DNA of 64,000 bases from Hyphochytrium catenoides (lineage: Eukaryota > Sar > Hyphochytriomycetes > Hyphochytriales > Hyphochytriaceae): the NCBI GenBank assembly GCA_900088475.1, contig FLMG01003815.1, forward strand, positions 1,218 through 65,217, given 5' to 3'. A program made the translations under genes and the position numbers. Under the pieces are notes generated by a model, which ran no database searches, was not told the DNA's origin, and saw only the letters and a program-made list of their open reading frames with translations. Positions 54,896 through 61,597 of this stretch are shown one piece after another (position 1 is the stretch's first letter; every line of letters begins with the position of its first letter).

Positions 54896-57800
54896 CTATT
54901 GAACCTTCTGTAGCTCAGGGGACCTATCATTGGCCTTAAGAGAGCGCAGACATGCCTCCAACCGAGTCAAAGCTTCATCAAGTGTCGCCTTCGCGGTGGC
55001 ATAGGAAACACGGACGCAGTTATCGTTGCCAAAAGCCGCACCGGGCACTAAGGCCGTCCTGGGAAAGGTAGCAGAACGGTCAGAGTCTTCATAGTTCTAG
55101 GCAACGGTCTTGCTGAAAGACGCAAGATGGGGTGACCAGCGACGCCAAATCAGGTAGAAGCAAAGGATGAGTGTCACAGGCCATACTTATATTCCTCCAG
55201 CAGGTAGCTGCATAGCGCCACGCTATCTTCAATGACCTGGCCGGCGGGAGTCTGCATCCCGTAGTATGCCGACACCACGGGAAAGCAATAGAACGCTCCT
55301 ATCATCTCAAGTTAGAAGGAAGCATCAAATGGAGAAACCAGCAAAGGCGTGAACCAGGTAGAGCTGTAGAGAAGCCGTGATATTGGAGAAACGCTAAGAG
55401 TCCGGAGTTAATTCTGAGACCTTCAGTGACAGGACACTGGACTCGAGGAATGGCTCGCAATTTTTGAAGAGTGAAGTCTCGTTTGGCCCTCATCTCAGCT
55501 ATATGCGGTGTCAGAAAAGAAGGGTCAAGAGAAATGGCGTGCATTCCAGCTTTTTGTGCGATGCTGCTCGCAGAAGAGGTGATCTGGCCCTGCAACTTGG
55601 CAATTGCCTATGAAGAGGAATAGAACAGGCAAAGATGGTTAGGCCTTGCAACGAGTGCGACAACTGAGGCGGATAGCCACAGGTATGTTCGTTCGTACCT
55701 TTGCTAAAGGAGCTGGTGCGGCAGAATAACCTAACCTATAACCTGTCATGGCATAGGACTTTGAGAATCCGTTCACGATGACGGTTCTTTCCCGCATACC
55801 AGCCAGCTGTTCCATTTTCAGTTATTGGGCGAAAATATGCGAGTTAGCGCGGGTAAGCTGCGCTCCGTAGTAGAAACGTAGTGGAAAGTACAAGGGAAAT
55901 AAACAACCAACGACAGGATTGTAGAGGCAAAGAGGGGCACCCAAGTGGGAAAGATAAGGAGTTGGAGAACACTTAACGCGTTAGTTTGGCTGGGGTAACT
56001 CACTGAAGCAAAGGATACATGCGGCGTGTCGTACACCATCCTTTCATAGATCTCATCAGCCAAAACGTATACATGCTGATACTCCGGCCTCCGCAAAATG
56101 GCAGCAATTTCCTCCAGGGTCGCTGGGGGAATGACGGCTCCCGTAGGGTTGCTTGGATTGTTAAGGATCTAAAATTGCAGGCAGCATTAGAACGTGAGGT
56201 TTGGGTCCACATTATAGGTCGTCCCATCATTTCTGGGAGAGGACTCTTGCCTGCACAGGCCCGATGGCACTAACGTACCAGAAGCCTTGTGCGAGGTGTG
56301 ATTGCTTTAGCCACTGTCTCCGGCTGTAGGACATAGCCATCCTCTGGCTTCGCATCTACTACAACAGGGACGCCCTAGTCAACATTCATGCATCCGAACC
56401 AGATAAAGGATGGGAATCGTTAAGGGTTTGGGAGTTCATGGAAAGCGCTGATTGAAGCTTCCGCACACCTGCGCAAGCTTCACAATCTCAGGGTAGCTGA
56501 CCCAGTAAGGAGCAGGGACAATGACTTCATCTCCGGGGTGAACGATGGCGACGGTAGCCTGAACAAAAAGAGAGAAGAAGAGGAGTAGCAGCAAACGAGG
56601 AAGATTTTGGAGCGACGTCAGAATGTCCAAAGATTGTATGCAAGGTGGCGACCAGAGCATGCGGCCACTGGCTCTATGAACACAGGGAGCACGTGAGTGA
56701 GAAATATCGCGAATGGGCCTTGATAATGGGGTGAACTATAATAGCGAAGAAGGCATTTAAGTCTAAAGAGTCATGGCGCCACATCAGCAGTTGCTGCTTG
56801 ACCTGGTAAACGCTCTGCTTGCCCCCATTGGAAACCACAATCTCATTCTCCTGGTAAGCGACACCCTTGTGCAGCTGGAGATACTGACAAATGGCTCGGC
56901 GGATCTCCGCAGTCCCCGTGAGGCCCGTGTAGCGAATGTGCCCATCTGCGGGATGTTAGGGATGGTAAATTAGAAAGCAACCGAATGCTTGCCCAAGAGC
57001 AATTGTTAGAAGCCAGAGCGATATACCGGTAAAAGCTAATAATGAAGAAGATTAGGTGGTAGGAAAGGCTATACAGGTAATGTTGGCAAGGTGGCAAGGG
57101 GCACAACTGAGAAGACATGGAAGAGCTGCCGGCAAACGCAGAGAGAAATGAGAGGATATGCCTTAGAGGACAGGATTATTACCCGTCACAGCTTTCCTTG
57201 TCGCCTCTAAAACGGATTCCGGAGGGAAGAAGTCTGGCTCCCCGACACAGAGGGAGACAACCTCCTCCCCTTGGTCCTCCAACATCTTGGTCTTGGCGTG
57301 AATGGTGACAGTGGCAGAGTCTTTCATTGCTTGGATGGCTGGACTTGGGATATACTACAATTGAAAAACCTGATTCAGTAGGTTGTCTGCAAGTCCCTAG
57401 GTATTCTCAGAAGTGTGGCTTGCCATTTAGTGATAAAAAGCGGTTGTCAATGGCCCGCGAAGGCGTCGCACGGCAAAGAGAGTAGAAAGATTGTGCCCAA
57501 ACTGTAGGCGAGTGGAGTTGGGGCTCGGAAACTGACCTGGGAGCCTGGGGATCCGCGTCCTGAGGCTTTCTCCATGGCACGCAGCTGTCTCTCAACTTCA
57601 TTCAGAGACAGTCTCAGCCTTTGAATCTACGAATACAAAATTTGAGTTGAAAGCACGTTGGTAAGGTTGCACTGTGTTATGAGAGAGTTGATCTTACCTG
57701 TTCCGCAGAGTTTGGATTATATTCAAACAGCCCGTAGAAGAGGTCAAAGCTGTCCAAGATACATGGTTAGAGCTTAGAGAGGTTGTTATAACCTCTTCCT

Positions 57801-60800: not shown

Positions 60801-61597
60801 GGCTGATAACCTTCTTAATATCAGACTTCTTAACCCCTGCCATTGGATATCAACCTCCATGCTTAAGACAACGTTGGGTGTCATGGGTAACAGCCCATAA
60901 GGAACAGAAACAGGCAGAGAGACATACATCGGAGACACGTGGTCTATTGACTCCACCTCGAAAAGTTAAGGGAGTTGCCGTCATGACGCCAATATAGTAA
61001 GCATAGGGTTTGAGCTGTGTCGAGACTTTTTACCAGGGAGAACCATCAGAGTGTGCTCCACTCTAAAGTCCAGTTCTCCAATAATGTGCAGATTGTATCG
61101 CAGGAGAAGGTCATATGTAGCGTGGATGCTGCCGCCCAAGCTACCAACGATCAAGACGATAACAAGGGTCAGTCAAACTCCACGAAGCCAGGATAATATA
61201 TGGTGAAGTTACCTGTTTTCCACCGGCAAGACCGCGTACTCAGCATCGCCATCCTGGACGGCAAGGAACACTGAAGTAAAAAAAGGAGGTACAAGGTGGT
61301 TAGAGTTATTTGTGACAGCGGCTGGTCTACCTAGGGCGTACCATCTTCAAACGAGGGCTTCCCAAGGGACTCTACATTGGGTCCCAGCAGTTGGTGGGTA
61401 GCTTTCTGGGAGTAGGCCCCAGGTTCCCCTTGATAGGCCACACGCAGCTTAGGACCATTTGATTGATGAGCATTGGGCATCGCCATTCTCAGCCTTAAAG
61501 ATAACTCTGGCAGGCGCTTTGGCTTTGATTGGTATCCTGTCGCCTTAGAATATCTGCTACCGGCTGCGCAGCAGATGCAGCCGTGGAGCCTCAATAG
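54896..61597 (-). CDS. Trifunctional arogenate/prephenate dehydratase - arogenate/prephenate dehydrogenase - prephenate aminotransferase-like fusion
   Basis: Three complete enzymes read in order on one strand. Dehydratase (about 61.5-59.3 kb): [92 protein letters not shown] and [10 protein letters not shown], then an ACT domain ([26 protein letters not shown]). Dehydrogenase (59.18-57.7 kb), plant TyrA-like: [64 protein letters not shown] and [18 protein letters not shown] 30-codon helical linker exon (57626-57537) follows. Aminotransferase (57.35-54.9 kb): [75 protein letters not shown] and PLP-lysine motif [18 protein letters not shown], ending TAG 54896. Both junctions are phase-0 introns (59269-59182; 57536-57355), each preceded in frame by a stop, so neither downstream domain can start alone. 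The 5' end is unresolved; the first in-frame Met is at 61486. Confidence 0.85.

Follow-up and report, generated by a model that had tools for sequence, protein, structure and literature searches.

A gene joining prephenate dehydratase, ACT, TyrA and aminotransferase domains in Hyphochytrium catenoides, and its homologues among protists

In plants, arogenate dehydrogenase, prephenate aminotransferase and arogenate dehydratase are separate proteins, unlike the fusion reported here, in which a prephenate/arogenate dehydratase (PDT), an ACT regulatory domain, a TyrA dehydrogenase and a class-I aminotransferase are joined in one gene of Hyphochytrium catenoides. The gene lies in a stretch of 64,000 nucleotides of contig FLMG01003815.1, which as a whole is called the window. 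The plant enzymes are also the nearest solved structures to its TyrA domain (a legume prephenate dehydrogenase) and to its aminotransferase domain. The pentafunctional AROM protein acts upstream of chorismate, unlike the PDT-ACT-TyrA-aminotransferase protein. In fungi and Phytophthora, AROM is likewise a fusion of several enzymes of the aromatic pathway (PMC2705460). Archaeoglobus fulgidus has a reported TyrA-AroQ-PheA-ACT fusion and Rhodobacter sphaeroides a hisHb-tyrA fusion (PMC1173090). In these, too, TyrA is linked with a dehydratase or an aminotransferase, but in another order and with other partners, and neither combines dehydratase, TyrA and aminotransferase. Two reviews (PMC9309667, PMC6635470) present prephenate aminotransferase chiefly as the reaction by which the making of phenylalanine and tyrosine was rerouted in plants, and in some microbes too.

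The closest known proteins are fusions of oomycetes, labyrinthulids and dinoflagellates, among them two from oomycetes (homologues carry P numbers here), P0009 ('putative prephenate dehydratase, prephenate dehydrogenase, aminotransferase, class I/classII') and P0026 (Phytophthora infestans, 'aspartate aminotransferase, putative'). These two share with the window protein the domains, their order and a similar length, with 50% identity at 98% coverage. The window protein differs from them in having Lys instead of Ala at position 12 of the aminotransferase and in standing on its own branch beside the oomycetes, as sister to P0002, P0003, P0013, P0027 and the oomycetes (support 93 in a full-length tree and 94 in a PDT-ACT-TyrA tree, the latter without P0013). 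The bifunctional PDT-ACT-TyrA protein P0097 of the Ochromonadaceae aligns with 57% of the window protein at 56% identity; unlike the latter, it has no aminotransferase domain, and the aminotransferases of the family in ochrophytes are separate proteins.

We consider it likely that the gene encodes a single multifunctional enzyme leading from prephenate to both phenylalanine and tyrosine, and that the fusion is ancient and was later split in ochrophyte algae and some dinoflagellates, while oomycetes and Hyphochytrium would have retained it. The aminotransferase domain would turn prephenate into arogenate, the dehydratase-ACT part, feedback-controlled through ACT, would yield phenylalanine from arogenate (or phenylpyruvate from prephenate), and the TyrA domain would oxidise arogenate to tyrosine, with chorismate mutase supplied by a separate gene. 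Substrate use and feedback are what we infer here. The fusion would be older than the diversification of stramenopiles, alveolates, rhizarians and haptophytes, or would have spread among these.

Gene model and domain structure

The splice model consists of one uninterrupted frame on the minus strand, from the ATG at 61486 to a TAG ending at 54896, in which all 24 introns are GT-AG and keep the reading frame (Table 1). An earlier note on this DNA, made from the letters alone, had described a single gene with dehydratase, TyrA and aminotransferase and with GT-AG introns of matching phase at the domain boundaries. This was borne out by the spliced frame, by three Pfam domains and by full-length homologues, and the junctions given in that note (59270/59181 and 57537/57354) coincide exactly with exon ends of the splice model, both in phase 0. 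In addition to PDT, Pfam placed PDH_N at amino acids (aa) 367-466 (E 4.5e-8) and Aminotran_1_2 at aa 635-995 (E 3.5e-64), and it did not report ACT for the window protein at E 0.001. Between PDT and TyrA, the protein aligns with the PDT of C. tepidum (2qmx), which is also the best solved match of the dehydratase part (E 5.5e-64), and a model of the relative P0002 has the expected order of strands and helices there. As in ACT-regulated dehydratases, ESRP is found at 238, a GALV-like GILY at 218 and the ACT fold in the P0002 model. As in the trifunctional family, every domain stands in the PDT-ACT-TyrA-aminotransferase order in one frame, with similarity to named members over the full length.

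The P0002 model was taken from AlphaFold (mean predicted local distance difference test, pLDDT, 89.5; predicted template modelling score, pTM, 0.49), and its low pTM means that it does not fix the relative placement of the domains. Segments with pLDDT below 50 were 1-18, 262-285, 343-352 and 607-611. A 30-codon helical linker between TyrA and the aminotransferase, previously singled out as a special feature, proved to be mostly TyrA's own C-terminal helix: exon 16 (aa 575-604) aligned with the last helix of soybean PDH1 as far as aa 594. In the P0002 model a helix spans 583-605, with mean pLDDT values of 90 (581-590), 83 (591-600) and 55 (601-610). The stretch equivalent to aa 571-612 of the window protein (42 aa) ranged from 30 to 83 aa, with a median of 45 (91 rows), so the joint between TyrA and the aminotransferase is short and variable in length.

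The in-frame stops that precede the TyrA and aminotransferase exons had been taken to show joint translation. They are the TAG of splice acceptors, seen at 10 of the 25 exons. Whenever a TAG acceptor precedes an exon in phase 0, it reads as a stop in frame, and such stops are no proof of joint translation. Read from the translated protein, the TyrA domain has no Met ahead of aa 460, while an in-frame ATG at 57327 (aa 614), nine residues into the aminotransferase domain, would allow this domain a separate start from an internal transcript. We infer a single mRNA for the fusion in H. catenoides. Extra transcripts releasing the aminotransferase alone from Met614, by which the fusion would not be obligate, would agree with this ATG and with the standalone forms of ochrophytes and dinoflagellates, but the long transcript open reading frames (ORFs) of the relatives P0031 and P0060 speak against them and we regard them as quite unlikely. 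An error of assembly or annotation that merged neighbouring genes is so improbable as to be almost negligible. It is true that the evidence in Hyphochytrium is genomic only and that P0001 (1491 aa, with two aminotransferase stretches) suggests merged models elsewhere, but the same order and a similar length recur in many genomes and transcript ORFs, and the splice phases match.

The position given earlier as the start of the gene, 61597, is an acceptor-like CAG located 111 bases upstream of the ATG at 61486, and a further upstream exon is possible as a candidate (Table 1). Against it, more than 20 residues before the dehydratase core were present in only 7 of 91 fused rows, the other 84 having 20 or fewer.

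Table 1. Positions of the gene, its domains and related features in the window (aa, amino acids; PLP, pyridoxal phosphate)
Feature	Position	Strand	Basis
Whole coding gene, PDT-ACT-TyrA-aminotransferase, 25 exons, 1,015 aa	54896..61486	-	Splice model, Pfam, full-length homologues
Prephenate/arogenate dehydratase domain, exons 1-6, aa 16-193; TRF at aa 185-187; exon 6 also carries the start of ACT	60084..61486	-	PF00800, E 4.9e-63; C. tepidum PDT 2qmx
Exons 6-9: ACT regulatory domain, about aa 200-320, GILY 218-221, ESRP 238-241, lineage-variable loop	59270..60205	-	2qmx alignment including its C-terminal part; P0002 model; homologue alignment
Exons 10-16: plant-type TyrA domain, aa 334-604; Ser409, His458, Thr553 and Asp556 at positions 101, 124, 219 and 222	57537..59181	-	Soybean PDH1 (nearest solved structures), E 3.8e-78; residue counts
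Exons 17-25: class-I-beta aminotransferase domain, aa 605-1015; Lys615, Thr619, Lys704, PLP lysine Lys842	54896..57354	-	Arabidopsis PPA-AT 5wmh (nearest solved enzyme), E 1.4e-106; residue counts
Phase-0 GT-AG intron at the ACT/TyrA boundary	59182..59269	-	Splice model
Phase-0 GT-AG intron at the TyrA/aminotransferase boundary	57355..57536	-	Splice model
Candidate exon further upstream, resembling a signal peptide by eye; its phase-0 donor GTAAGG might be spliced to the acceptor at 61597	61975..62013	-	Read from the sequence

Distribution and history of the fusion

The full-length protein was searched for homologues, and the best 120 of 398 matches were tabulated. Ninety of these 120 exceed 840 aa, and the first 54 rows span both junctions, with 97-99% coverage and 45-58% identity, so the fusion is not due to chance. 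The earlier note had proposed looking for this architecture in stramenopiles and other algae; the search gave many full-length members in stramenopiles and other protists and algae, and the PDT-ACT-TyrA-aminotransferase order turned out to be not rare but widespread and visible in databases. Among the matches listed, fused members were found in the oomycetes Phytophthora, Pythium, Albugo, Peronospora and Bremia, in the labyrinthulid Hondaea, the dinoflagellate Prorocentrum, Chromera, the haptophyte Emiliania and the rhizarian Amorphochlora. The amoeba Arcella contributed one fused record, possibly contamination from prey. The database names of P0009 and P0015 already carry all three activities, and P0031 (1044 aa) and P0060 (977 aa) are MMETSP transcript ORFs marked complete. 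A record named Batrachochytrium salamandrivorans (P0089) groups with Hondaea and its kin (support 99, starred) and is probably mislabelled or contaminated.

Other members of the family are split. PDT-ACT-TyrA proteins without the aminotransferase are found in the ochrophyte P0097 and further relatives, and standalone aminotransferases of the same family in brown algae, Tribonema, Chrysoparadoxa and Chrysophaeum and in the dinoflagellates Alexandrium and Effrenium. The short PDT-TyrA matches P0085, P0098 and P0099 are oomycete pieces, two of them marked partial, and are no sign of aminotransferase loss. The ochrophyte proteins P0123 and P0097 have, by eye, signal-peptide-like presequences as in plastid import.

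With respect to the literature, no paper describing PDT-ACT-TyrA-aminotransferase was found in one open-licence library, although the supplementary P. sojae lists of PMC2705460 might include the fusion. That paper reports 273 novel multifunctional proteins in P. sojae, and there is no mention of chorismate, tyrosine, phenylalanine or a dehydratase in its main text. In PMC5592239, the candidate algal genes of oomycetes include 82990 of P. ramorum, described as 'Prephenate dehydratase family'. As far as searched, this is thus a widespread protist family, visible in databases and undescribed in the literature.

All trees were first thinned by identity. Of 211 aminotransferase regions 107 were kept for the tree, to which the window and two references were added; the TyrA tree has 99 of 241 regions and the window. 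For the full-length tree 52 rows were chosen, and the PDT-ACT-TyrA tree had 46 protist and 10 outgroup rows, rooted on green plants and algae and red algae, with P0085, P0098 and P0099 kept outside the bifunctional set. In the aminotransferase trees the enzymes of protists fall together in a single group (support 92 and 94, not starred), which adjoins Arabidopsis PPA-AT and bacteria including a Rubricoccaceae genome, and the standalone ochrophyte and dinoflagellate enzymes are nested among the fused ones. A clade of fused aminotransferases only was rejected with 53 fused rows against 52 others (cost 256 log units, p 4e-9; P0061, P0076, P0087, P0092 and P0199 excluded) and again with only 8 named standalone protist rows kept (44 against 21, p 5.7e-5; P0061, P0076, P0087 and P0092 excluded). 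The same constraint gave p 0.0026 for TyrA alone (60 against 40) and p 0.046 for PDT-ACT-TyrA (37 against 19). In the PDT-ACT-TyrA tree the bifunctional proteins (9 rows) form a clade (support 100, starred) within a group of 22 (support 95, starred) that includes the window, oomycetes and alveolates. The trees hold 4 to 6 changes between the fused and split states.

We read this as suggesting an ancient fusion with later fission, which one domain supports well and the others weakly; lateral transfer among protists may also have occurred. Two points speak against such a history: the trees were quick ones, made without bootstrap, and the significance of the TyrA test is gone once 7 possible fragments are dropped (p 0.228, 60 against 33). 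This neutral result, together with the borderline one for PDT-ACT-TyrA, would also agree with standalone algal aminotransferases that are not fission products, the aminotransferase having been fused repeatedly to PDT-TyrA in other lineages or transferred between protists. This alternative seems rather unlikely to us, as the standalone rows lie inside the fused aminotransferase group, a fused-only clade is rejected there, and the count of state changes also tells against it.

A reverse-order fusion, TyrA-PDT without ACT and of 445-452 aa, was also observed (P0259, P0262, P0265, P0278, P0312, P0318, P0331 and P0348; L022-L028). The nearest named genome is Candidatus Gracilibacteria (68%), followed by Parcubacteria, Halobacteriovoraceae, Bdellovibrio and Halobacteriovorax (33-37%), and in the TyrA tree its TyrA groups with those of red algae and protists.

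Substrates predicted for the domains

In the clade-I TyrA enzymes tested in PMC5681985, arogenate use accompanies an acidic side chain at position 222, and prephenate use comes in when this is lost. Asp556 of the window protein aligns with position 222 of soybean, which is Asn in the structure 5t9e and Asp in 5t95 and 5t9f, and Thr553 aligns with position 219. Asp was present at 222 in 119 of the 121 rows, window included, Ser at 101 in 119 and His at 124 in all 121. With Asp556, Ser409 and His458, the window protein has the residues described for arogenate-specific TyrA of clade I (PMC5681985) and its TyrA is predicted to be of the arogenate type. A 2013 survey of two diatoms did not find an enzyme that forms tyrosine from arogenate (PMC3901274). 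P0321, from the diatom Cylindrotheca, is a TyrA protein that lacks PDT and has, by eye, Asp at the place of 222, which suggests that such TyrA enzymes exist in diatoms. P0321 and its kin are plant-type TyrAs that fall inside the protist TyrA group of the tree.

In the aminotransferase, the equivalents of Thr84 and Lys169 (Arabidopsis numbering), which we take to be sites with a role in prephenate aminotransferase, are Thr619 and Lys704, each present in 89 of 90 fused rows. Lys, Arg or Gln at position 12 of the Thermus aspartate aminotransferase (AAT) is reported by Giustini and colleagues (2019) to mark prephenate competence. This position is occupied by Lys615 in the window protein, by Lys12 in Thermus 1bjw, by Lys in Arabidopsis and by Ser in Phormidium, and by that rule the window protein would be competent. 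An NCBIfam scan of P0002, P0009, P0097 and P0123 returned no aminotransferase model at its cut-off among the best 25 rows. P0087, a fused protein near those of dinoflagellates, has Asn at TyrA 222, Ala at the place of Thr84 and Leu in the column of the PLP lysine; perhaps its aminotransferase has decayed and its TyrA has switched to prephenate.

Several observations weigh against these assignments. The Phormidium AAT 1j32 also has the equivalents of Thr619 and Lys704, so the pair does not single out prephenate enzymes and was rejected as a diagnostic on its own. Of the 90 fused rows, the window among them, just 23 have Lys, Arg or Gln at position 12 (13 Lys, 9 Gln, 1 Arg); the remaining 67 have Ala (27), Ser (12), Thr (10) and others, with Ala in Phytophthora P0009 and P0026. 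Therefore, the arogenate route is predicted for this gene and less surely for the family: either the other fused enzymes do not transaminate prephenate despite an arogenate-type TyrA, or the rule fails here. In the dehydratase, Ala223, at the start of the ACT domain and Ala in 108 of 121 rows, is tentatively the equivalent of plant Ala314 (PAC region), which is linked to prephenate use; this placement hints that the dehydratase may take prephenate. The NCBI cut-off for prephenate dehydratase (NF008865) was passed by all three relatives with the domain that were scanned (P0002, P0009 and P0097). Finally, contig C1078 of the same genome carries a phenylalanine-hydroxylase-type gene, that is, another route to tyrosine.

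The residues at position 12, Ala223 and the NF008865 result would fit a prephenate route for phenylalanine, in which the dehydratase uses prephenate, the aminotransferase acts mainly on phenylpyruvate and/or oxaloacetate, and TyrA alone uses arogenate, made by another enzyme. It also agrees with soybean arogenate dehydratases, which with or without the plant Ala can show PDT activity, so that the residue rule has exceptions (PMC10845154). We hold this route to be unlikely for the window protein, which has Lys615. In addition, the nearly invariant Asp222 of TyrA means that arogenate has to be supplied, most obviously by the fused aminotransferase. In this regard, the arogenate route proposed in the earlier note keeps the arogenate-type TyrA residues and the prephenate-type mark in the aminotransferase of this gene, but not that mark across the family.

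Source genome and meaning of the fusion

The genome of H. catenoides (42.5 Mb, 1,105 contigs) was searched, and no PDT or TyrA match was reported outside this locus; weaker aminotransferase matches were found on contigs C638, C506 and C421. The Pfam PDH_N profile gave no match in the genome although the domain is present at the locus, which means that such a search misses domains split by introns. Five matches on contig C533 look like exons of a chorismate mutase of the plant/yeast type, which would thus be a separate gene; each is below the family cut-off because it is a single exon. No candidate for a chlorophyll-binding or light-harvesting protein (PF00504) was found, in a search in which introns split genes. 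A photosynthetic source was therefore rejected as unlikely, and this absence is compatible with a colourless plastid. The source is apparently a non-photosynthetic stramenopile near the oomycetes.

In the rest of the window, Pfam was run on nine other ORFs and matched three of them: BOP1NT, EB1 (below its cut-off) and teneurin-type epidermal growth factor (EGF) repeats. The latter lie in an open frame of 741 codons at 34270-36492 of the minus strand. No tRNA was found in the window.

More tentatively, and as something possible that we would place somewhat short of probable, the complete arogenate branch may have been one protein in the ancestor of stramenopiles, alveolates, rhizarians and haptophytes, working without photosynthesis in heterotrophs and dismantled when ochrophytes moved the branch into the plastid. 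The fused aminotransferases would then bind prephenate by means other than position 12, aided by their tethering to the enzymes that use arogenate. The conflict at this position, between an arogenate-type TyrA and Lys, Arg or Gln in a minority of the fused rows, is the most testable point. The fusion is a natural test case for the channelling of the acid-labile arogenate and for the residues that make a prephenate aminotransferase, and its proposed history of fusion and fission would be a marker of how algae re-sited a pathway. A fused branch of the arogenate type across many protists, several of them non-photosynthetic, would make the route much wider than the reviews cited above present it.

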